From the NCBI GenBank assembly GCA_016178725.1, contig JACOSV010000045.1:1-64000 (forward strand): a stretch of DNA of 64,000 nucleotides, written 5' to 3'. The translations under genes and the position numbers were made by a program. Positions 12,919 through 26,030 of this stretch are shown here, piece after piece. The notes below the pieces were generated by a model. That model did not search any database and was not told the origin of the DNA. It was given only the letters and a program-made list of their open reading frames with translations. The DNA comes from Candidatus Eiseniibacteriota bacterium. GTDB taxonomy: Bacteria > Eisenbacteria > RBG-16-71-46. Each line of letters opens with the position of its first letter. Positions within the stretch are counted from its first letter, which is position 1.

Positions 12919-12950
12919 CCGCAAGTGCTTGATCACCATAGGAGTTGCCT

Positions 12951-14321
12951 GTGATCGGGAACATGATCCTGCCGGGGCTGATCCTGCTCGGCATCGTGAT
13001 CTTCGTCCATGAGCTGGGCCACTTCCTCATGGCCAAGTGGCGCGGCGTGCGCGTGCTCAAGTTCTCGCTCGGGTTCGGCCCGGCCCTGTTCCGCTTCACG
13101 TCGGGCGAGACCGAGTACCGGATCTCGTGGATCCCGCTCGGCGGCTACGTCTCGATGGCGGGCGACAGTCCGAACGAAGACGGCTCGATGCCCGAGGGCG
13201 ACGACCAGTTCCTCTCGCATTCGTGGCAGGGGCGCGCGCTGATCGCGATCGCCGGCCCGCTGGCGAACCTGATCACCGCGTGCGTGATCATGATCGTGAT
13301 CGGGCTCGTCGGCGTGACCTATCCCGACTATCCCAACGTGCTCGGCGCCGTGCCCGACACGACCGTCGCGGCGCACGCCGGGCTGCGCGCCGGGGACCGT
13401 CTCACCGCGGTCGCCGGCAGGCCGGTCTCGAGCTGGGTGGCGTTCTTCGTCGCCGAGAAGCTGGTGCCCGAGCGCCGTCCGCTCGACGTCGAGGTGACGC
13501 GCGGCGTGACGAAGTTCACCGCCCACGTCGCGGCCGCCGACCGCCGCGCGTTCCTCAACGGCCTCGACCGCCCGCCCGATCCGCCCGTGATCGGCACGGT
13601 GATGACCGGCATGCCCGCCTACAAGGCCGGGCTCAAGGACGGTGACAGCATCCTCGCCGTCAACGGCCGGCCCGTGCGCGTGTGGGAGGACCTGCCGCGC
13701 GAGATCTCGAGCCAGACCGACCGCCCGGTCGTCATGCGCATCCAGCGCCACGGCAAGGCGTTCGATCTCACCGTGACGCCGGTCGATCCCGGCGGCGTCG
13801 GCGGCTCGAATGCCGGCCGCATCGGCATCGAGGCCCGGCGCCTGGGCAACTACGTCGAGCGCTATCCGCTGCTCCAGTCCATCCAGCTCGGATTCTTCGC
13901 AACCATCGACCTCGTCGGCAGCGTCTATCGTGGCATGTGGCTCACGGTGACCCGGCCGCTCTACTATCGCGAGTACCTGGGCGGGCCGATGTTCATCGCG
14001 CAGGCGGCGAGCGAGCAGGCGCGGCGCGGACTCGACGCGTATCTGCAATTCCTGGCGATGATCAACGTCGCCATCATGGCGTTCAATCTGCTCCCCATTC
14101 CGGTGCTGGACGGCGGCCACATCGCGCTGGCGCTGTTCCAGGCGGTGCGCGGCCAGAGCGTCTCGTACCGGTCCTACGTCCGATTCCAGAAGGTCGGCCT
14201 CGTGGTGATCGGCACGCTCTTCATCCTCATCCTGGCGAACGACCCGTTGCGCTGGCTGCAGAGGCAGCGCGCGCTCGACAAAGCTCCCCAGGAGGGCGAG
14301 GTTGCCCCGAACCCGCCCTAG
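12951..14321 (+). CDS. rseP: Site-2 membrane metalloprotease RseP
   Basis: RseP cuts transmembrane anti-sigma factors and leftover signal peptides inside the membrane. The 456-residue protein has the zinc motif HELGH at 20-24 in the first membrane helix, two PDZ domains in the middle (GLRAGDRLTAVAG and GLKDGDSILAVNG), and the second active-site motif PVLDGGHI in a C-terminal helix. I chose GTG 12951 because AGGAG at 12940-12944 lies six bases before it, whereas the TTG at 12945 directly abuts that sequence. Placement between dxr and an Omp85 gene is the common order. The 3' end overlaps the next gene by 20 bases. Confidence 0.93.
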   Translation: MIGNMILPGLILLGIVIFVHELGHFLMAKWRGVRVLKFSLGFGPALFRFTSGETEYRISWIPLGGYVSMAGDSPNEDGSMPEGDDQFLSHSWQGRALIAIAGPLANLITACVIMIVIGLVGVTYPDYPNVLGAVPDTTVAAHAGLRAGDRLTAVAGRPVSSWVAFFVAEKLVPERRPLDVEVTRGVTKFTAHVAAADRRAFLNGLDRPPDPPVIGTVMTGMPAYKAGLKDGDSILAVNGRPVRVWEDLPREISSQTDRPVVMRIQRHGKAFDLTVTPVDPGGVGGSNAGRIGIEARRLGNYVERYPLLQSIQLGFFATIDLVGSVYRGMWLTVTRPLYYREYLGGPMFIAQAASEQARRGLDAYLQFLAMINVAIMAFNLLPIPVLDGGHIALALFQAVRGQSVSYRSYVRFQKVGLVVIGTLFILILANDPLRWLQRQRALDKAPQEGEVAPNPP

Positions 14322-16281
14322 CGGCGAGCGTCGGACGTGGTGGTGGGGCCTCGCGCTGGTCGCCGCGCTGGTCGTGACGGCGAAGGCCGGCCGGGCCCAG
14401 GAAGATCTCTTGGGCGAGCTCAAGACCGTCGCCTCGGTGACGTTCGTCGGACGGCACCATGTCCCCGCGCGCGAGCTGGGCACGGTGATGAAGACCCGGG
14501 CGCCCTCGCTGTGGCCGTGGCACGAGCGTCCGGTGCTACGGCCGGACTTCCTGCGCTCCGACACCCTCGCGATCCGCGACCGCTACCGGCTGCACGGCTT
14601 CCTCGACGCCGAGGTCGGCGCCACGGTCGCCGCCACCCACGACTCGAACGCCGTCGCCGTGACGTTCCTGATCCGCGAGGGGCACCAGTCGCGGGTCGCG
14701 AGCGTCGCGTTCCACGGCGTCGAGCACTATCCGGTGGACGACATCCGCCGCAAGCTGCAGACGCGACGCGGCGTGCCGTTCGATCCCTACGTCCTGCAAC
14801 TCGACACGCTCAAGATCTCCGAGCTCTATCAGGAGCGCGGCTACCGGCCGTCGATCAGCGCGGTCGCGCGGCGCGGCGAAGGCAACGACTCGCTGCGAGT
14901 GCAGGTGGACTTCGAGGTCGTCGAGGGCACGCGCTACCGCGTCGGCCGCGTGTCGGTCGAGATCCAGGGCGACCGGCCCGTCGCGCCGTGGCTCGCGCGC
15001 CGCGAGGTGATGCTCAAGCCCGGTGACTGGTACCGGCGTTCGTTCCTGGTGCGGTCGTGGGAGCGGCTCTACGACACCGGGCTCTTCAGCTCGGTCCAGA
15101 TGACGCCGACCGTGGATTCGACCCGCGACAGCATCGACATCGACGTCACGGCGCTGCCGCGCAAGCCGCGCTGGATCGACGCCGGCGTCGGGAGCGGCAC
15201 CGCCGAGCGCTTCCGCGTCACCGGCGAGTGGGGTTACCGCAATCTCATGGGCCGCGGCATCCAGGGCGCGCTCGACTCGCGCATTGCGTTCAACGGGCAG
15301 GGCAAGTTCCTGCTCGCGCACACCGAGGGCTCGCTGCTCGCGCCGTGGATGTTCGGCAAGCGCATCCGCGGCGTGGTGACGCCCTACTACGAAAACAGCC
15401 ACGACCGCGCCGACCCGCGTTGGCTGGTGGTGCAGGACCTGCGCGGCGTGCGCTTCGAGCTGCGCCGCGACATCGACCGATTCAGCAGCATCGCGCTGTC
15501 GCAGGACAACGTCTGGGGGCATCAGGCGCTCACGCTCTTCACCGACACGCTCGCCGCGGCGACGCGCGACTCGCTCCAGCGCTCGGTGGTCTCGAGTTAC
15601 AGCACCCACAGTCTCTCGCTCGGCGCGCAGTGGGACTACCGCGACAATCCATTCAGCGCGACGCGCGGATCGTTCCACGTCGCGAACCTGGAGCTGGCGG
15701 GCGGTCCGCTCAAGGGCACGAGCAGCTTCCGCAAGTTCGCGGTGACGTCCTCGTGGTACACGCCGTTCCGCAACGGCTGGGTGCTGGCCACGCGCGTCGA
15801 GGCCGGCGCGATCGAGCCGATCGGCATCGCCCCGGCATTCTCGCTCGAGCCGAGCGTCGATCCGACGGTCGCCCGGGTGCCGCTCCCGGACCGCTTCCGC
15901 CTCGGCGGCGTCAACTCGATCCGCGGCTTCAGCGAGAACCAGGTGCCGCCCTCGGGCGGGCTCGCCATGCTGCTCGCCAACGTCGAGATGCGCATCCCGC
16001 TGGTCGGGCCGTTCGGGCTCGAGGTCTACGCCGACGCCGGGAATGTCTGGGCGCGGCCGCAGTACATCAAAGGGCACGACTTCCCGCTGCGGCTGAACCA
16101 CACGGTGCTGGGCCCCGGCGACGTGCGCTACGTGGTCGGGATCGGACCGCGGCTCAACCTGCCGATCGGGCCGCTGCGGTTCGATCTCACGTGGAGCTTG
16201 AGGCCGGTGCCGGATCCCGTGACCGGACAGGCCGTGTGGCTGATCCGCAAGGCCCAATTCGCGATCGGACCCTCGTTCTGA
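14302..16281 (+). CDS. Omp85 outer-membrane protein, BamA/TamA family (three POTRA domains)
   Basis: An outer-membrane barrel that inserts or exports proteins. The 659-residue precursor has a signal peptide ending near GRAQ (residue 32), about three POTRA repeats between 37 and 285, and a 16-strand-type barrel after that, with the loop-6 motif SIRGF and a C-terminal phenylalanine. The rseP-bamA order favours BamA, but three POTRAs, the size and the tamB gene directly downstream favour TamA; one protein might serve both roles. TTG 14302 follows GGAGG at 14291-14295 with a good spacing and lies inside the rseP end. Confidence 0.88.
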   Translation: MPRTRPSGERRTWWWGLALVAALVVTAKAGRAQEDLLGELKTVASVTFVGRHHVPARELGTVMKTRAPSLWPWHERPVLRPDFLRSDTLAIRDRYRLHGFLDAEVGATVAATHDSNAVAVTFLIREGHQSRVASVAFHGVEHYPVDDIRRKLQTRRGVPFDPYVLQLDTLKISELYQERGYRPSISAVARRGEGNDSLRVQVDFEVVEGTRYRVGRVSVEIQGDRPVAPWLARREVMLKPGDWYRRSFLVRSWERLYDTGLFSSVQMTPTVDSTRDSIDIDVTALPRKPRWIDAGVGSGTAERFRVTGEWGYRNLMGRGIQGALDSRIAFNGQGKFLLAHTEGSLLAPWMFGKRIRGVVTPYYENSHDRADPRWLVVQDLRGVRFELRRDIDRFSSIALSQDNVWGHQALTLFTDTLAAATRDSLQRSVVSSYSTHSLSLGAQWDYRDNPFSATRGSFHVANLELAGGPLKGTSSFRKFAVTSSWYTPFRNGWVLATRVEAGAIEPIGIAPAFSLEPSVDPTVARVPLPDRFRLGGVNSIRGFSENQVPPSGGLAMLLANVEMRIPLVGPFGLEVYADAGNVWARPQYIKGHDFPLRLNHTVLGPGDVRYVVGIGPRLNLPIGPLRFDLTWSLRPVPDPVTGQAVWLIRKAQFAIGPSF

Positions 16282-16291
16282 CGGTGGAGAA

Positions 16292-19200
16292 ATGACCGAG
16301 CCCCCGGATCACGAACCGCGCGACCCCGAATCGGGCGAGACGCCGCACGGCCTCGGCGAGGAGATCCGGCACGAGATCGCCGAGGTCCGCCACGAGATCG
16401 AGGAGGCGGTCGAGCACGTCCCGAAGCCGATCCGCTGGACGGTCGGCAAGCTGGTGCGGCTCGCCGTGCTCTCGGTCTTCGCGCTGCTGGCGATCGCGGT
16501 GGTGACCGCGATCCTCTACGTCGCGAACCGCACCCAGTGGGCGGCGCAGGAGCTGGCGCTGGTGGTGAACCAGACGCTCGCGGCGCGCACCGACGTGATG
16601 CTCGAGATCGGCGACCTCAAGGGGAATCCGCTGACGGGCGTGCGCATCCTCCGGCCGCGGGTGCGTTTCCGCGAGGGCAACGCGCCGCCGCTGCTCGAGG
16701 CGCCGTCGCTGACGCTGCGCTATTCGGCGTGGGCGCTCGCGACCGGCGGTCGCGGACCGATCGAGGTCGATATCGACCACCCGCGCTTCCAGCTCGGGCG
16801 CAAGCCGGACGGCTCGCTGCGGCTGCCGCTATGGCGGTCGGAGGGTCCGGGCCGCATCGGCGTCCACGCGCCCACGCGCGACTTCGTCGTGCGCATCCAC
16901 GATGGATCGCTCCTGACGCCGGACACGACGCTGCGCATCGCCGATCTCGACCTCGACGCGCTGGCGTCGGTGGGCGGGCCGACGCACGTCGAGGTGCGCT
17001 CCCTGCGCTGGCGCGCGGGGCCGTTCGGCAGCCGGCTCGAAGGCCTGCGCGCCGAGCTCGCGGGCGGCGACAGCACGCGACTCACCGTGCGCGAGGTCGC
17101 GACCCGCGATCTGCACCTGAGCGGGCGGGCGGCATGGAAGGAGGGCGCCGCCGACGCGAGCGTGCATGTGGATATCCAGCGCGTGCGCTGGCGCTGGCTG
17201 GCGCGCGTGTTCACCAACGACACGTTCGAGGTCCCGGGCGAGGGGAAGGTCGCGATCGACGCGCGCGGCTGGACGCGCTGGGCGGGGCGCTTCGCGATCA
17301 CCGCCGACTGGGACAGCCTGCCGGTCGACGCACACGGCGGGCTCGCGTGGGACGGCGCACGCCTCAAGCTCGATCCGATGATTGGACACTCGTCGGCGGG
17401 CGATCTCGACGGCGTGGTGCAGTGGAGCAAGCAGGGCTGGGAGGTGGGCGGCCTCGCGCGCCACGCCGATCCCTCGCGCTGGTTCGTGTTCGGACTCCAC
17501 GACTGGCCGGCGGGCGACCTCAACGGTCGTTTCCGGTACTGGGTGGACACGCGCGGCGTCTCGCATCCGCGGCTCGCCGCGCGGATCGTCGCGACCGAGT
17601 GGGCGCGCTGGCGCGCCGACAGCGGATCGGTGGCGATCGACTTCACGCCGGTCGGGCCCGACACGTTCCTCGTCCGCACGTTCCGGCGCGGCGGCGAGAT
17701 GACGCTGAAGGCCGCGACCCAGGCCAAGGGCTGGCGCGGTGACTACACGCTCTCGCGTTATCCGCTCGACGAGTGGCCGGACGGCCGCGCGAGCGGACTC
17801 AAGGGCACACTCGCGACCGGGCGCGGCACGGCCGAGGACGGGCCGGGCGGGCTGCGCGTCACCGGCGCGCTCGACGGCACGGTCACCGACTGGCTCGGCA
17901 TCCACGCCGCGCGCTGGCGGCTCACCGATCTCGACGGCACGCTGCTGCCGGTCCCGAACCTCACCGCGAACGCGCGGCTCTCCGATCTCTTCTTCCTCGG
18001 CGTCCACTGGGACAGCGCCGGCGTCGCATTCCACCTCGGCGACGGCACGGTGTCGCTGCCGCGCCTGCGCGCGACCGCCGCCGACACGGTGATGAGCCTC
18101 GACGGGCGCGTGGACTGGGGCAAGGAGGGCTGGCGCCTCGCAGCCGACAGCGCAGCGTTCGAGAGCAGCCGCTTCCACTGGACGGCGTCGTCGCCGCTGC
18201 GGCTCACGGGCGAGAGCGGCGGCGTGCGCTTCGACCGACTGGTCGCGTCCGACGGCGACGCGCGGCTCACGATGGAAGGGATGTGGGCGGTGCCGGGCGG
18301 GCATTACGACTGGACCGGCCGCGTCGAGCGTCTCGATCTCGCGCGCCTCGGCCTGCCGATGGACTGGGGGCTCGCCGGCACGGCCGACGTCGTGCTGCAC
18401 GTGAGCGGCGTCCCGGGCGACGCGCGCTGGACGCTGGAAGGCGCCGCGCGCGCGCCGGGCGTCCGCGGCCACCGCATGGATTCGCTCCGCGTCGCGGTCG
18501 GCGGCGGCCCGTCGCGCGTCGAGTTCTCGGACGTGACCGCGATGCTCGACGGCGGCCGGTTGAACGCGCACGGCGAGGTCTCGGCGATGCCCCGTGCCTG
18601 GCCCGACACGCTGACCGGCGAAGGCATCACCCGCTGGATCGCCGAGGCGGCGCGCTGGGACGGCGCGCTGCGCGCGGATCGCGTGCCGATCGACCGCCTC
18701 GAGCGGATGGCGCCGGCGGCCAAGGACTGGAAGGGCCGCGTGAGCGGAACGATGGACGTTCACGGCAGCCCGCGTGCGCCGGACCTTGCCTGGAACGTGA
18801 GCGCTCAGCCGCTCACGTGGGGCGATTACCGACTCGACGCGGCGAGTGGCCACGGGCTCTACCACGACCGCCGGCTCGAGGTGCCCGAGCTCAGGATGAC
18901 GCGCGGCGACGTGGTCTCGACCATCAGCGGCGCGATGCCGCTCGTGCTCGCGCTGGGCGAGGTCCCGACCGTGCCCGACACGCCGATGGAGTGGCGCATC
19001 GATCTGCCGAGCGGTGACCTCGCGGTGCTGCCGGTGTTCGTGCCGCAGATCGGCTCGGCCTCGGGCCGCCTCGACATGAACGCACGTCTCTCCGGCACGC
19101 CGCGGAGGCCGGATCTCTCGGGCCACGTGCGGATCCGCGACGGCAAGGTGCGCATGGCCGGCCGCGACGAGGTGATCGAGCAGGTGAGGGCCGATCTCAC

Positions 19201-20389
19201 CCTCAACCGCAGCCGCATCACGCTCGACAGCCTTTCGGGGCGCCAGATGGCGCGCAAGGGGGCGACCGGACGCGTCACCGCCACGGGCGCGATCGATCTC
19301 GACGGTCTCGCGCTCAAGGGTTACGCGTTCACGGTGGACATGCGGGACTTCACCGCGATCGAGACCGGCGTCTACGTCGCGGTGTTCGACGGGCGCTTCC
19401 GCGTCACCAATGGCCCGAAGGTCGGAGGGGCGTCGCTGCCGTTCGTCGAGTCGCTCGACAACGGTGTCGAGCTGCAGCGCGCGGTCGTGCTCTTCGACTT
19501 CGCCAACCAGAGCGAGGTGGATCAGGTCGCGGCGGCGACGCAGCCGCCCTACTGGACGTACCGCATCCACCTCAATGCCACCGACAAGCTCTACTGGCAG
19601 CCGCAGGACGCCAACATGGAATTCAGCGCCGACCTGCGCATCGAGCAGACGCGCGACGAGCTGATCATCTTCGGCGACATGGCCTCGCTGCGCGGCACCT
19701 ACTACTACCTGAGCAACAAGTTCGACGTGAACCGGGCCAACCTGACGTTCGACAACGTCGGCGGGCTCGATCCGAAGCTCGACATTGAGGCGGTGACGCA
19801 GGTGGCACGCGGGCGCGGGCCCGAGAACACCGCCACCGCGAGCAGCGGCAACGAGGGAATCACGGTCACGGTGTCGGGCCGGGCCAAGGAGCCGGCGATC
19901 ACGTTCGCCACCGACCCCGATTCGTGGGACCAGTCGGCCGTGCTGCGCGCGCTCACCACCGGGCAGGACCCCGGCGTGGGGGCGAGCAAGTACGCCGACA
20001 GCTACTTCACGCGCGCCATCAACCGGCAGCTCTCGTCCGACCTGTCGCGCGCGTTCCAGGGCTACATCAGCGAGCTCGAGCTGGCGCGCGAGTCGGGCGG
20101 CCTGCTGCAGGGGGAGGGCGGCGTGATCGTGCGCGTCGGCGTGCCCGTGAGCCGGAACGTGAGCCTGCGCTACGGCCAGCGTCTGCCGGGCACCTCGCGG
20201 GCGACCGGTCCGGGCACGACCACCACGATCACCAATCCGCTCGAGCGTGACGTCGAGGCCGAGTACCGGATCAACCGGTTCTTCTACTTCACGACGGCGC
20301 TCACGCAGCGCCGCGCCGGCACGACCCCGGGCGCGGCGGTGACGCCGCCGGAGTTCAACGTGAACCTCAAGGCGCGGTGGGAATACTGA
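16292..20389 (+). CDS. tamB: TamB-like translocation/assembly protein (DUF490)
   Basis: TamB-type proteins span the periplasm as a long beta-taco, anchored in the inner membrane and touching an Omp85 partner; they work in outer-membrane protein or phospholipid traffic. This 1365-residue protein has a charged cytoplasmic head with EEIRHEIAEVRHEIEEAVEH, one membrane helix at about 56-77, a very long repetitive beta-rich region, and a C-terminal DUF490 domain ending in LKARWEY. ATG 16292 follows a GGAG and lies ten bases after the Omp85 gene, so the two form a unit. The stop codon is part of the next promoter. Confidence 0.9.
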   Translation: MTEPPDHEPRDPESGETPHGLGEEIRHEIAEVRHEIEEAVEHVPKPIRWTVGKLVRLAVLSVFALLAIAVVTAILYVANRTQWAAQELALVVNQTLAARTDVMLEIGDLKGNPLTGVRILRPRVRFREGNAPPLLEAPSLTLRYSAWALATGGRGPIEVDIDHPRFQLGRKPDGSLRLPLWRSEGPGRIGVHAPTRDFVVRIHDGSLLTPDTTLRIADLDLDALASVGGPTHVEVRSLRWRAGPFGSRLEGLRAELAGGDSTRLTVREVATRDLHLSGRAAWKEGAADASVHVDIQRVRWRWLARVFTNDTFEVPGEGKVAIDARGWTRWAGRFAITADWDSLPVDAHGGLAWDGARLKLDPMIGHSSAGDLDGVVQWSKQGWEVGGLARHADPSRWFVFGLHDWPAGDLNGRFRYWVDTRGVSHPRLAARIVATEWARWRADSGSVAIDFTPVGPDTFLVRTFRRGGEMTLKAATQAKGWRGDYTLSRYPLDEWPDGRASGLKGTLATGRGTAEDGPGGLRVTGALDGTVTDWLGIHAARWRLTDLDGTLLPVPNLTANARLSDLFFLGVHWDSAGVAFHLGDGTVSLPRLRATAADTVMSLDGRVDWGKEGWRLAADSAAFESSRFHWTASSPLRLTGESGGVRFDRLVASDGDARLTMEGMWAVPGGHYDWTGRVERLDLARLGLPMDWGLAGTADVVLHVSGVPGDARWTLEGAARAPGVRGHRMDSLRVAVGGGPSRVEFSDVTAMLDGGRLNAHGEVSAMPRAWPDTLTGEGITRWIAEAARWDGALRADRVPIDRLERMAPAAKDWKGRVSGTMDVHGSPRAPDLAWNVSAQPLTWGDYRLDAASGHGLYHDRRLEVPELRMTRGDVVSTISGAMPLVLALGEVPTVPDTPMEWRIDLPSGDLAVLPVFVPQIGSASGRLDMNARLSGTPRRPDLSGHVRIRDGKVRMAGRDEVIEQVRADLTLNRSRITLDSLSGRQMARKGATGRVTATGAIDLDGLALKGYAFTVDMRDFTAIETGVYVAVFDGRFRVTNGPKVGGASLPFVESLDNGVELQRAVVLFDFANQSEVDQVAAATQPPYWTYRIHLNATDKLYWQPQDANMEFSADLRIEQTRDELIIFGDMASLRGTYYYLSNKFDVNRANLTFDNVGGLDPKLDIEAVTQVARGRGPENTATASSGNEGITVTVSGRAKEPAITFATDPDSWDQSAVLRALTTGQDPGVGASKYADSYFTRAINRQLSSDLSRAFQGYISELELARESGGLLQGEGGVIVRVGVPVSRNVSLRYGQRLPGTSRATGPGTTTTITNPLERDVEAEYRINRFFYFTTALTQRRAGTTPGAAVTPPEFNVNLKARWEY

Positions 20390-20520: not shown

Positions 20521-23500
20521 ATGCGCAGGAGTCCCCTCGCCTGGATGGCGCTCGGATGCGTGCTCCTCGCGTTCATGCCCCGGCCGGCCGCCGCGCAGTT
20601 CTTCGGCCAGAACAAGGTCCAGTACCGCCGGTACCACTGGCAGTCGATCACGTCGGACCATTTCGACGTCTACTACTCGACCGGCCTCGACAGCCTCGCG
20701 CGCCGCGTCCTCGACCTCGCCGAGAAGACCAACGCCTACCTGTCGGCGCGCATGGGGCATCAGCTGCGCCGCCGCGTCCCGATCATCGTCTACGGCTCGC
20801 ACAACGATTTCTCGCAGACCAACGTCACGCCCGAGATGATCGACGCCGGGACCGGCGGCTTCACCGAGGTGCTGCGCAACCGCGTCGTGATCCCGTTCAT
20901 GGGCTCGTACGACGACCTGCGTCACGTCGTGGTCCACGAGCTCACCCACGCGTTCATGTTCGACATGGTGTACGGGAACTCCGCGGCGTCGCTGATCGCC
21001 CGCGGCAGCTTCTTCCAGATCCCGCTGTGGTTCGCCGAAGGGCTCGCCGAGTACTACTCGCTCGGCGCCGACACCGAAGAGGAGATGGTGCTGCGCGACG
21101 GGGCGATCGCCGGCTACCTGCCGCCGCTCATGTACGCGGGCGGCTTCGGCGTCTACAAGGAGGGCCAGTCGGCGCTCGCGTATCTCGTCGCGCGTCACGG
21201 CGAGGACCGGCTGCGCTCGATCTTCCAGCGCATCCGCTCGATGCGGACCTTCGACCGCGCGTTCCAGCGCAGCCTCGGCGTCTCGGTCGAGCGCTTCGAC
21301 GAGCAGTGGCGCGAGGAGCAGCGCCGGACCTACTGGCCGACGGTCGCGACCAAGCAGAACCCCGAGGACTTCGCGCGACGGCTCACCGACCACCGCCGCG
21401 ACGAGAGCAACCTCAACACGTCGCCGGCGGTGTCGCCCCAGGGCGATCGCGTCGCGTTCTTCTCTGACCGCAAGCAGTACACGGACGTCTATCTCATGTC
21501 GGCGATCGACGGGAAGGTGCTGCGCCGGGTGATCCGCGGCGAACGCAGCGTCCGGTTCGAGACGGTGCCCTCGTTCCGCAGCGCGATCGCGTGGTCGCCC
21601 GACGGCCGCGAGCTCGCGATCACGCCCAAGTCGGGTGGCCACGACGTGCTGACCATCGTCTCGGCGCTCGACGGCTCGGTGCGCAAGCGCATCGATCTCC
21701 ACCTGGACGCGATGGCGTATCCGGCGTGGTCGCCGGTGTCGGACTCGATCGTCGTGGCGGGCTTGAAGGACGGGCGCTCCGATCTCTACCTCGTGGACGT
21801 GAAGAGCGGCGCCGCGAGCCGGCTCACGGACGACACGTGGGACGAGAAGGAGCCGGCGTGGAGCCCGGACGGCCGGCGCATCACGTTCACCTGCGACCGC
21901 GCGGCGCCGATGGTGCTGCAGCCGGTGCGCCGCGAACGCGGATTCGGGGGCTACGGGCTCTACGACCTCGATCTCGCGACCCGCGAGGTGATCCCGCTGC
22001 TCGACACGCACGGCGACGACCACTCGCCGGCGTGGTCGCCCGACGGTCGCCGTGTGGCGTTCATCTCCGATCGCAACGGGGCGGCGAACATCTATCTGTA
22101 CGATCCGGCCGACCGGTCGGTGACGCAGCTGACCGACGTGCTCGGCGGCGTGATCAGCCTTTCGTGGTCGCGCACCAATGACCGGCTCGTGTTCTCGGCG
22201 TTCAACCGGGGTGGCTTCGACATCTTCGCGGTCAAGGAGCCGCTCTCGCTCGACGCGGTGGTCGCGCGGCTCCGCCGCCAGGCGCCGCAGTCCGTGTTGA
22301 GCGTCGAGCGGGCCGGCAGCGCCGCGCCCTCCGATTCGGGCGCGCGCGCGCCGTCGCGCGGCGCGCTCGCCGGAGCGTGGCCGGACACGCTGACCGCGGC
22401 GCCGGACACGATGCGCTCGGAGCCGCGCGAGGTCGAGCCGGCGCTCACGGCGGGCGGGCACAGTGACACCACGCGCGTCGCGGGCGGCCGCCGGCTCGAG
22501 CCGCCGGCGTGGACGCAGGGGGCGCACCCCTATCCGGGTCCCGCGCCCGACACGGTCGCGCGCCTCCCGAACCGGACGCCGCTCTTCGAGCGCGGCGGCC
22601 CGTTCGCGCTCGCGGATTCGGTGCTGGCGCAGGCGCCGGCGCCGTACAAGGCGCACCTCGCGCCCGACTACGCGGGCGGAGGTTTCTACGCCGCCTCGAG
22701 CTTCGGATTCATCGGCAGCACGCAATTCCTGTTGAGCGATTTCCTCGGCGACCACAGTCTGTACATCGCGACCGACGTCTTCAGCACGTCGCTCGAGGAG
22801 ACCAACGCGCTGGTGCTCTACAACTATCTGCCGCGACGCTGGGACTTCTCGGGCGGGTTCTTCCACTTCAAGAACTACTACTCGTCGGCGGTCACCACGC
22901 TCGGCGACGCGCTCGGCAGCCCGCGGCTCTTCTCGGAGCGCAACTTCGGCGCGCTGGTCAACGCGTCCTACCCGTTCGACCGCTTCCGCCGCGTGGAGTT
23001 CGGCTTCACGCAGCTCTTCGCCGAGATCCGCTTCTTCGACCTGAACTTCGGCACGCTGGTCGGGCGCAAGTACCAGTCGGTCACCTCGCCGTCCGTTTCG
23101 CTGGTCGGGGACAACGCGCTGTTCGGCTACTACGGTCCGGTCAACGGCCACCGCTACAACCTGACCTACAGCCCGTCGCTCGCGCTATTCGACAACGGCC
23201 TCTCGTACCACACGATCACCGCCGACGTGCGTCACTACTGGGATCTGACCCACGGCTACACGCTCGCGCTGCGCGGGCTCGGCGCATACAGCACCGGCCG
23301 CGATCCGCGCTCGTTCTTCGTCGGCGGCTTCTCGACGCTGCGCGGCTACGCCGACTACTCGCTCGAGGGCCAACGGGTCGCGATCGGCACCGTGGAGCTG
23401 CGCTTTCCGTTCATCGAGCAGCTCGGGCTCGTCGGCCCGGTGCCGCTCGGCGTGTTCAACCTGCGCGGTGCGCTGTTCACGGACTTCGGCACCGTGTGGG

Positions 23501-23697
23501 ACGAGGGCGGATCGCCGCGGCTCTGGACGCAACCCGGCAACGGACCACGCCGGCTCGAGGACCTGCGTCTCTCGTTCGGCACGGGGATCCGCACCGCCGT
23601 CTATTTCCTGCTCATCAAGGTCGACGCCGCGTGGCGCACGGATCTCGTCTCGACGAGCAAGCCGCGCTGGCATTTCAGCATCGGCCCCGAGTTCTAG
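20521..23697 (+). CDS. Secreted metalloprotease fused to a beta-propeller and an outer-membrane barrel
   Basis: A 1058-residue three-part envelope protein. Residues 1-24 are a signal peptide ending in AAAQ. Residues 30-300 are a peptidase MA-like metalloprotease with HELTH at 139-143 and the likely third zinc ligand Glu173 in WFAEGLAEY. About 340-600 holds TolB-type propeller repeats (AWSPDGR, LSWSRTNDRLVFSA). A Pro/Ala-rich linker follows, then from about 740 an Omp85-like barrel with TLRGYADYS and a terminal Phe. No POTRA is seen. It would be surface-anchored with enzyme and propeller in the periplasm or outside. I chose ATG 20521 for the signal peptide that follows it. Substrate unknown. 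Confidence 0.85.
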   Translation: MRRSPLAWMALGCVLLAFMPRPAAAQFFGQNKVQYRRYHWQSITSDHFDVYYSTGLDSLARRVLDLAEKTNAYLSARMGHQLRRRVPIIVYGSHNDFSQTNVTPEMIDAGTGGFTEVLRNRVVIPFMGSYDDLRHVVVHELTHAFMFDMVYGNSAASLIARGSFFQIPLWFAEGLAEYYSLGADTEEEMVLRDGAIAGYLPPLMYAGGFGVYKEGQSALAYLVARHGEDRLRSIFQRIRSMRTFDRAFQRSLGVSVERFDEQWREEQRRTYWPTVATKQNPEDFARRLTDHRRDESNLNTSPAVSPQGDRVAFFSDRKQYTDVYLMSAIDGKVLRRVIRGERSVRFETVPSFRSAIAWSPDGRELAITPKSGGHDVLTIVSALDGSVRKRIDLHLDAMAYPAWSPVSDSIVVAGLKDGRSDLYLVDVKSGAASRLTDDTWDEKEPAWSPDGRRITFTCDRAAPMVLQPVRRERGFGGYGLYDLDLATREVIPLLDTHGDDHSPAWSPDGRRVAFISDRNGAANIYLYDPADRSVTQLTDVLGGVISLSWSRTNDRLVFSAFNRGGFDIFAVKEPLSLDAVVARLRRQAPQSVLSVERAGSAAPSDSGARAPSRGALAGAWPDTLTAAPDTMRSEPREVEPALTAGGHSDTTRVAGGRRLEPPAWTQGAHPYPGPAPDTVARLPNRTPLFERGGPFALADSVLAQAPAPYKAHLAPDYAGGGFYAASSFGFIGSTQFLLSDFLGDHSLYIATDVFSTSLEETNALVLYNYLPRRWDFSGGFFHFKNYYSSAVTTLGDALGSPRLFSERNFGALVNASYPFDRFRRVEFGFTQLFAEIRFFDLNFGTLVGRKYQSVTSPSVSLVGDNALFGYYGPVNGHRYNLTYSPSLALFDNGLSYHTITADVRHYWDLTHGYTLALRGLGAYSTGRDPRSFFVGGFSTLRGYADYSLEGQRVAIGTVELRFPFIEQLGLVGPVPLGVFNLRGALFTDFGTVWDEGGSPRLWTQPGNGPRRLEDLRLSFGTGIRTAVYFLLIKVDAAWRTDLVSTSKPRWHFSIGPEF

Positions 23698-23825: not shown

Positions 23826-26030
23826 GTGTCCAGCCTGCCCGATCTCAACGAGGCGCAGCGCGCGGCCGTCGAGCACGGCGCGGGCCCGGCGCTGGTCATC
23901 GCCGGGGCGGGGAGCGGCAAGACCCGCGTCCTGACCGCGCGGGTCGCGCATCTGCTGGCGCGCGGGATCGCACCCGAGGCGATCCTCGCGTTCACGTTCA
24001 CGAACCGCGCCGCGCGCGAGATGCGGGCGCGCATCGAGCGCACGGTGGGCGAGGCCGCGCGGCGGCTGTGGGTCGGCACCTTTCACGCGACCGGCGTGCG
24101 CATTCTGCGCCGCGAGGCGCGCGGGGGAGCGCTCCCCGGGATCGGCCCCGACTTCGTCATCTACGACCGCGAAGATCAGGAGACGGTGGTCGCGGCCGCG
24201 ATCGCGGCGCTCGAGCTCCCCGAGGGGACGCTTCGCACGGGCGAGGTACTGCGCCGCATCTCCGACGCCAAGAACGCGCTGGTCTCGGTCGAGGCGTTCG
24301 AGCGCGCCGCGGTGAGTCCGCACGAGCGGCGGATCGCCGCGTGCTATCGGCGTTATCGCGACACGCTGCGCGGCCAGTCGGCGCTCGACTTCGACGACCT
24401 GATCGGCGACGTCGTGACGCTGCTGCGCGACCGACCCGAGATCGCCGAGCGCTATCGCCGCCGCTTCGTCCACGTGCTGGTGGACGAGTACCAGGACACG
24501 AACCACGCCCAGTTCCGGCTCGTCGAAGCGCTCGCCGCCGGACACGGCAACCTGTTCGTGGTCGGCGACGACGATCAGAGCATCTACCGGTTCCGCGGCG
24601 CCGACCTGACGAACGTGCTCGAATTCGAACGAGCGTTTCCCGGCGCCGCGGTGATCCGGCTCGAGCAGAACTACCGCTCGACCGCCAACATCCTGCGGGC
24701 GGCGAACGCGGTCATCGCCCACAACCGCGACCGCAAGGGTAAGACGCTGTGGTGCGACCGCGAGGACGGCGCGCGGCTGCGCTTCGTGCTCGCCGCCGAC
24801 GAAGCCGACGAGGCGCGCTGCGTGCGCGCGCGGCTCGAAGAGCACCGCCGGCGCGGCGGCCGGCTCGACGAGTGCGCGATCCTGTACCGCACCAACGCGC
24901 AGTCGCGCGCGCTCGAATCGGAGCTGCGCCTCCACGGCATCCGCTACGAGATGGTCGGAGGCGTCTCGTTCTTCGCCCGGCGCGAGGTGAAGGACCTGCT
25001 CGCGTATCTGCGCCTGGCGCTGAATCCCGCCGATCGCGTCGCGTTCTGGCGCGTCTGGAACACGCCGCGGCGCGGCCTCGGCGACGCGGTGCGGGCGCGC
25101 ATCGAAGCGCTTGGGGACGCGCCGCCGCTCGAGGCATTGCGGTCGCTCGCGGGCGAAGGCCTGCGCGGCGCGGCGCGCGGCGGCGCCGAATCGTTCATCA
25201 CGCTCATCGACGAGCTGCGTGCGGGGCTGAACGCACCGCCCGCCGAGCTGCTGCGCCTCGTGCTCGAGCGCACCGACTATCTCCGCATGCTCGACGACGA
25301 GCGTGACGGGACGTCGGCCGATCGCCGCGCCAACATCGAGGAGCTGCTGGTCGCGGCGTCCGACCACGCGAGCGCGCCGGCGGACGATGGGAGCGGGGAC
25401 GTGGCGGGATTCCTCGCCGAGGCGACGCTCGTGACGGACGCCGACCGCGTGGAAGAAGGCGCGGATCGCGTGCTCATGCTGACCGCGCACACCGCGAAGG
25501 GCCTCGAGTTCCCGGTGGTGATCGTGGCCGGCCTCGAGGAGGGTCTGTTTCCGCACGGCTCGTCGCTCGACGAGCCGGGGCAGCTCGAGGAGGAGCGCCG
25601 GCTGTTCTACGTCGCCGTGACGCGCGCCCGGAACGAGGTGCTCCTGACGGCGGCCGCGTATCGGCGGCGGTTCACGGCCGAAGGCGTGTTCGCGGCGCGG
25701 GGCGGGGCGGTGTCGCGGTTCGTCGACGAGATCCCGGCGGAGCTGGTCGACCGCGAGGAGACGCTCCAGCCGGCCGTTCGATTCCCGGCATGGGCGTCCC
25801 GCCGGCGAGCGGGAGCCGCGGGACCGGCCCAGAGCGACGGCCCGGCGTACCGTACGAGGGGCCCGCTCGCGCGCGTCGTCGGTAAGGAGGTCTATCACGA
25901 GACGTTCGGGCGCGGCGTCGTCGTGATGGCGGAGGGCGCCGGGCCCGACGCGCGCTACACCGTGCGCTTCGGCACCCAGCTCAAGAAGGTGATGGGGCGA
26001 TTCCTGACCGGAGGCGTGGATGTCGATTGA
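23826..26030 (+). CDS. pcrA: UvrD/PcrA-type DNA helicase
   Basis: A superfamily 1A 3'-5' helicase for nucleotide-excision repair and for clearing recombinase or stalled polymerase. The 734-residue protein has motif I GAGSGKT near residue 25, motif II DEYQDTN, motif III GDDDQSIYRFRGA, the ARREVKD region, motif V TAHTAKGLEF and motif VI RLFYVAVTRAR, then a Tudor-like tail (GREVYHETFGRG-like) that in PcrA binds RNA polymerase. GTG 23826 is picked from the start of homology, behind a GGAAAG; an ATG at 23727 would add an unconserved leader. A TAGATT at 23777-23782 may be the -10 of its promoter. The end overlaps gatC by 11 bases. Confidence 0.93.
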   Translation: MSSLPDLNEAQRAAVEHGAGPALVIAGAGSGKTRVLTARVAHLLARGIAPEAILAFTFTNRAAREMRARIERTVGEAARRLWVGTFHATGVRILRREARGGALPGIGPDFVIYDREDQETVVAAAIAALELPEGTLRTGEVLRRISDAKNALVSVEAFERAAVSPHERRIAACYRRYRDTLRGQSALDFDDLIGDVVTLLRDRPEIAERYRRRFVHVLVDEYQDTNHAQFRLVEALAAGHGNLFVVGDDDQSIYRFRGADLTNVLEFERAFPGAAVIRLEQNYRSTANILRAANAVIAHNRDRKGKTLWCDREDGARLRFVLAADEADEARCVRARLEEHRRRGGRLDECAILYRTNAQSRALESELRLHGIRYEMVGGVSFFARREVKDLLAYLRLALNPADRVAFWRVWNTPRRGLGDAVRARIEALGDAPPLEALRSLAGEGLRGAARGGAESFITLIDELRAGLNAPPAELLRLVLERTDYLRMLDDERDGTSADRRANIEELLVAASDHASAPADDGSGDVAGFLAEATLVTDADRVEEGADRVLMLTAHTAKGLEFPVVIVAGLEEGLFPHGSSLDEPGQLEEERRLFYVAVTRARNEVLLTAAAYRRRFTAEGVFAARGGAVSRFVDEIPAELVDREETLQPAVRFPAWASRRRAGAAGPAQSDGPAYRTRGPLARVVGKEVYHETFGRGVVVMAEGAGPDARYTVRFGTQLKKVMGRFLTGGVDVD

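Follow-up and report, generated by a model that had tools for sequence, protein, structure and literature searches.

A gene at positions 20521-23697 of the forward strand encodes a protein of 1058 residues (plus stop) that joins a zinc-protease domain, a TolB-like beta-propeller, and a C-terminal Omp85-type barrel in one chain without a POTRA. Its zinc motif is invariant among the aligned members of the family, it occurs throughout the sampled Candidatus Eisenbacteria genomes, and its gene belongs to a conserved cluster with a TamA-like Omp85 gene and tamB. On balance, we read the protein as an outer-membrane-anchored zinc protease that would act on the periplasmic side in the biogenesis or quality control of outer-membrane proteins. 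The window, as the term is used here, is the whole stretch of DNA that was analyzed, 64,000 nucleotides in length.

Domain Architecture

The protein begins with a Sec signal peptide (residues 1-25, 20521..20595), predicted to be cleaved between AAA and Q and aligning with the signal peptides of relatives; inspection of its sequence shows no lipobox Cys for a lipid anchor. The mature N-terminus, QFFGQNKVQY (20596..20625), contains the motif FGxNKVxY, which is conserved among 84 aligned family members: G29 and N31 are found in 84/84, K32 in 83/84, and F28 in 82/84. The zinc-protease domain, a Peptidase_MA_2 match with similarity to M9 collagenases by profile, covers residues 72-265 (20734..21315; Pfam 37.0 bits, cut-off 32.4). 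It is followed by a TolB-like PD40 beta-propeller at residues ~297-572 (21409..22236; PD40 86.8 bits) and by a disordered, poorly conserved Ala/Pro/Gly-rich linker at residues 575-705 (22243..22635). The Omp85 barrel, with its LRGY loop motif and terminal Phe, occupies residues 706-1058 (22636..23694), and the Omp85 Pfam match itself spans residues 789-1058 with 61.4 bits against a cut-off of 24. All of these features lie on the forward strand.

No POTRA is present among the Pfam matches of the 1058-residue protein. The linker between propeller and barrel, ~131 residues long here and modeled with pLDDT <30 over most of its length, is reduced to ~22-30 residues in several relatives, which is too short for a POTRA. 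Pfam and sequence analysis thus agree with the first-pass annotation, which had read a signal peptide, an MA-type protease, a TolB-like propeller, and a C-terminal barrel and had claimed the absence of a POTRA. A chance open reading frame or frame artifact is ruled out because full-length homologues down to ~30% identity retain all domains.

Zinc Site of the Protease Domain

The protease domain carries the zinc motif HELTH at residues 139-143 (20935..20949) and a second motif, EGLAE, which includes E173 and the conserved E177 (21037..21051). Among the aligned members, H139, E140, H143, W170, E173, and G174 are invariant (84/84), and E177 is kept in 83/84. The best PDB match for the protease-part profile is the microbial M9 collagenases (E 6e-5), which align through HExxH and EGxAEY. 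The same HExxH ... EGxAEY arrangement occurs in PF04450 basic secretory proteins. The similarity to the collagenases, however, is weak and confined to the catalytic half, and collagenases have no barrel. In such collagenases, the second motif provides the third zinc ligand through its first Glu, and the alignment supports E173 as the corresponding putative ligand. With HExxH, a downstream Glu, and a Peptidase_MA_2 match above its cut-off, the domain belongs to the Peptidase MA clan (gluzincins).

The zinc site formed by H139, H143, and E173, as proposed earlier, is a prediction that homology and the invariance of all three residues support. The protease part of the full-length AlphaFold2 model is too poor to show zinc geometry. 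At the motif level, a dead enzyme is rejected, as the predicted catalytic residues are invariant in 84/84 members.

Propeller and Barrel

The full-length AlphaFold2 model was built from six sequences, has a pLDDT of 40, and is usable for the propeller only. It shows strands for six blades, and its first PDB match is TolB, which is also matched by the sequence profile and is the closest propeller by both sequence and fold. The equivalog level for TolB (Tol-Pal) was not reached (138 bits versus a cut-off of 343, for the propeller part only).

An AlphaFold2 model of residues 691-1058 contains ~15-16 antiparallel strands at low confidence (mean pLDDT 56, pTM 0.52). All 50 PDB matches listed for this model belong to the Omp85 superfamily and comprise BamA from several species, TamA, and the chloroplast TOC barrel. 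The final stretch of Fusobacterium BamA (9ccg; E 3.5e-17) is matched by the last 339 positions of the whole-family profile. Pfam, profile, and fold searches therefore support an Omp85-type barrel as the C-terminal domain, in line with the barrel that had been expected after residue 740. The protein does not reach the equivalog level of either BamA (48 bits versus 297) or TamA (9.5 versus 625). Across the 84 aligned members, a GG...LRG loop motif and an aromatic C-terminus are conserved in the barrel, and no barrel residue is more strictly conserved than those of the protease.

Gene Neighborhood

Upstream of the gene, the window contains rpsI, rpsB, tsf, pyrH, frr, and dxr, followed on the forward strand by genes for an RseP-like M50 protease with PDZ domains (12945..14321; Peptidase_M50 194 bits), a TamA-like/BamA-like Omp85 protein with POTRAs (14302..16281), and TamB (16292..20389; Pfam TamB 118 bits). 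Downstream lie a forward-strand gene for a UvrD-type helicase (23844..26030; UvrD-helicase 284 bits), which forms the end of the conserved cluster, and then gatB and purD. Pfam matches of the neighbors bear out the earlier statement that the gene comes right after an Omp85/TamB pair. The promoter of its own that had been attributed to the gene is not supported: the 131-bp gap after tamB contains no terminator and no consensus promoter in a scan for sigma-70-type sites, and orthologues likewise lie a short distance after tamB in eleven loci where the spacing was measured.

The BamA equivalog cut-off of 297 bits is passed in this genome only by an Omp85 protein on another contig, C83 (469 bits), whereas the neighboring Omp85 in the window scores 229. 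The C83 gene encodes the main BamA, with five POTRAs, and is followed by OmpH/Skp, LpxD, LpxC, and LpxA-like genes (L142 7958-14496). The rseP-Omp85 pair was accordingly rejected as the bamA locus. TamB was found only in the window in a search of this genome, which is ~89% complete. With the main BamA on C83 and the only TamB found located in the window, the protease-propeller-barrel gene sits with the TamA-like/TamB pair. The genome thus has two separate Omp85 loci, one (14302-20389 of the window) with a POTRA-poor Omp85 and TamB in the rseP position and one on C83 with the true BamA; the place of the E. coli-type rseP-bamA order is occupied here by the TamA-like/TamB pair.

The order rseP-Omp85-tamB-gene recurs in thirteen other loci within the phylum. 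In 12 of these, uvrD comes next, four times after a gap of ~2.4-3 kb, and the thirteenth stops at a contig edge. Outside the phylum, one genome (G181) has the complete dxr-rseP-Omp85-tamB-gene-uvrD cluster, and four have parts of it: tamB-gene-uvrD (G318), tamB-gene (G253), dxr-rseP-gene-uvrD (G256), and dxr-rseP-gene (G104). Adjacency to tamB was observed in 3/67 genomes checked outside the phylum, where we estimate that chance would give ~0.1 at most, assuming ~3000 genes per genome. This number is far above chance, and shared descent would explain the cluster as well as shared function. In several other Eisenbacteria families, the gene has no tamB link.

Distribution and Relatives

All 47 sampled Candidatus Eisenbacteria genomes have a match (47/47, E <1e-30). 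Outside the phylum, 94/338 genomes match at E <1e-40, mostly over the protease and propeller, in open frames of ~1000 residues. Pfam analysis of 38 diverse full-length members detects PD40 in 38/38, Peptidase_MA_2 in 31/38, and Omp85 in 24/38. Taken together, these results indicate that the architecture is widespread and not a one-off fusion. The view that such proteins are rarely described is right for the literature and wrong for genomes, in which the architecture is common. A scan of viral contigs found no relatives.

The same genome has three copies, namely the gene in the window and one each on contigs C9 and C80. In a quick tree with long branches and an uncertain deep order, the window's clade is separate both from a group of shorter proteins (~925-1010 residues) that includes the C80 copy and from the group of the C9 copy. 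In four genomes of different families (L101, L103, L104, L107), a second-clade paralogue directly precedes, on the same strand, a gene for a BamB-fold (PQQ_2) propeller, which was checked by Pfam in three of the four loci. In two genomes outside the phylum, the genes that follow the family member on the same strand (L083 5796-7247 and L084 5339-6859) are homologous to each other, and the L083 copy matches the peptidoglycan-binding SPOR domain. In one Eisenbacteria family (L128, L129, L131, L133), two paralogues with the same orientation are separated by ~7 kb, and the intervening genes include one of the DHHA1/alanyl-tRNA-editing type. One member (L131 5355-8754) is seemingly divided between two overlapping frames, possibly through a frameshift or an assembly error.

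A 633-residue protease-propeller relative without a barrel is encoded on plasmid pSR116 of Salinibacter ruber (NZ_CP030365.1, L144 4914-6815). It has a signal peptide, is annotated by NCBI as "basic secretory protein-like protein", and lies among unrelated genes. The FGxNKVxY motif right after the signal peptide persists in it with one substitution. A split gene, with the barrel encoded next door, was rejected, since the gene there is homologous to Peptidase_S10.

Comparison with Known Systems

BepA and DegP of E. coli are soluble proteins that have neither a barrel nor a TolB propeller. BepA, an M48 zinc peptidase, acts in the periplasm on LptD at the BAM complex (PMC8423444). The job that the present protein is proposed to share with BepA (PMC8423444) and DegP is the periplasmic clearing of failed outer-membrane proteins at BAM, although the protease families of both differ from that of this protein. 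BamA and TamA, which the fold search retrieves, have the Omp85 barrel in common with it, and its gene lies beside tamB as that of TamA does; BamA and TamA, however, have POTRAs. As a member of the Omp85 superfamily, the protein has the barrel and lacks the usual POTRA (at least one), which is also absent from several described subfamilies.

One of these is the WD40-Omp85 subfamily, which the main text of Heinz and Lithgow (2014, PMC4104836) describes as an uncharacterized combination of an N-terminal TolB-like propeller and a POTRA-less Omp85 barrel. The present protein has the same TolB-like propeller before an Omp85 barrel, again with no POTRA. It may differ in its zinc-protease domain, which the main text of PMC4104836 does not mention for the subfamily. 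Judged from that main-text description, the protein overlaps the WD40-Omp85 subfamily and would be set apart by the zinc protease.

Pfam family PF00149 is that of the calcineurin-like metallophosphoesterases and not one of HExxH proteases. In the main text of PMC4104836, PF00149 is the domain given for a "Metallo" Omp85 subfamily, which is presented there as an Omp85 barrel with a metalloprotease attached, and the label "metalloprotease" may be a misnomer as used there. Membership of the present protein in this class was rejected because the class rests on PF00149, which is not among its Pfam matches.

The patatin-Omp85 protein PlpD likewise has an enzyme domain fused ahead of an Omp85 barrel, and this domain stays in the periplasm, contrary to earlier belief (PMC11116518). 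PlpD is a lipase with a POTRA and no propeller, whereas the present protein is a predicted protease with a propeller and no POTRA. The same 2024 paper still calls these Omp85 subfamilies not well characterized (PMC11116518). Among open-licence papers, none was found on the triple architecture of protease, propeller, and barrel.

Proposed Function

In the proposed mechanism, the POTRA-less Omp85 barrel would anchor the protein in the outer membrane. The TolB-like propeller would hang from its periplasmic side and serve as a platform for docking or substrate capture, in the place held by POTRAs or BamB in other Omp85 machines. The gluzincin-type protease domain would be kept close to the outer membrane on the periplasmic side, where H139, H143, and E173 would bind zinc and E140 would activate water. 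There, beside the TamA-like/TamB pair, its task would be either the cleavage of barrel precursors that have stalled or misfolded or the trimming of those still maturing, presumably TAM or BAM substrates, in a role that resembles those of BepA and DegP.

The N-terminal domains of Omp85 barrels lie in the periplasm. Together with the periplasmic location of the PlpD lipase, this leads us to assign both the protease and the propeller to the periplasmic side of the outer membrane. The TAM gene neighbors, the presence of the gene in all sampled genomes of the phylum, and the invariant active site make cleavage of outer-membrane proteins its most likely task. A role in outer-membrane quality control had been guessed in the first-pass annotation; it is favored by the conserved rseP-Omp85-tamB-gene-uvrD neighborhood, and the location, the activity, and the substrates are what we infer. 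The BamB-fold propeller gene that adjoins paralogues in four genomes is also in favor of quality control. A link to TAM is weakened by most members outside the phylum and by several families within it, in which the gene is not next to tamB. The barrel-less Salinibacter relative also counts against the proposal, as it suggests that the protease-propeller unit can work without a barrel.

In a rival reading, the protein would be one more Omp85 insertase or translocase: its barrel, folding proteins or carrying them across the outer membrane, would do the main work, the propeller would replace the POTRAs and BamB, and the protease would be auxiliary (e.g., in trimming or self-processing). This seems unlikely for a protein that lacks the POTRA, the usual substrate-handling part of Omp85 proteins, and keeps its protease residues at least as strictly as any in the barrel. 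The retention of protease and propeller in the barrel-less form also argues against it. It would fit the conserved GG...LRG loop motif and aromatic C-terminus, the TamA/TamB neighbors, and the interpretation of WD40-Omp85 by Heinz and Lithgow as a BamA-BamB fusion, as given in the main text of PMC4104836.

A cell-surface or secreted protease is quite improbable. The barrel would then be a translocator that exports the protease and propeller for the digestion of external proteins or of the cell's own surface proteins, the latter being the shaving role suggested earlier. Three copies per genome would suit nutrient gathering, the closest proteases with solved structures, the microbial collagenases, are secreted, and the Salinibacter relative, with its signal peptide, may be exported. 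However, the domains ahead of Omp85 barrels are periplasmic, for PlpD itself, export was assumed for a long time until a periplasmic location was demonstrated (PMC11116518), and the presence in 47/47 genomes of the phylum and the dxr, rseP, and tamB setting are more in keeping with a housekeeping role. A Tol-Pal-like or cell-wall-linked envelope protein, whose propeller would bind Pal or peptidoglycan-linked partners and position the protease at the junction of wall and outer membrane, is very unlikely, because the resemblance of the propeller to TolB concerns PD40 repeats that are shared with unrelated enzymes, S9 peptidases among them, and the SPOR-matching neighbor and its homologue, the other point in its favor, are confined to two genomes.

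We return to the reading as a periplasmic-side protease, under which the protein is probably an uncharacterized but widespread outer-membrane quality-control enzyme. A bolder and tentative extension of this reading is a third kind of Omp85 machine, protease-bearing and POTRA-less, that might form one working unit with the TamA-like Omp85 and TamB, its partners in the conserved rseP-tamA-tamB-gene cluster. If so, the insertion and the destruction of outer-membrane proteins would be coupled within a single membrane complex across several phyla. The propeller-plus-barrel subfamily, as so far described, may include zinc enzymes. The disposal of failed outer-membrane proteins is little understood in most bacteria outside the Proteobacteria, and for such bacteria this protein is a candidate quality-control enzyme whose predicted catalytic residues can be named exactly.
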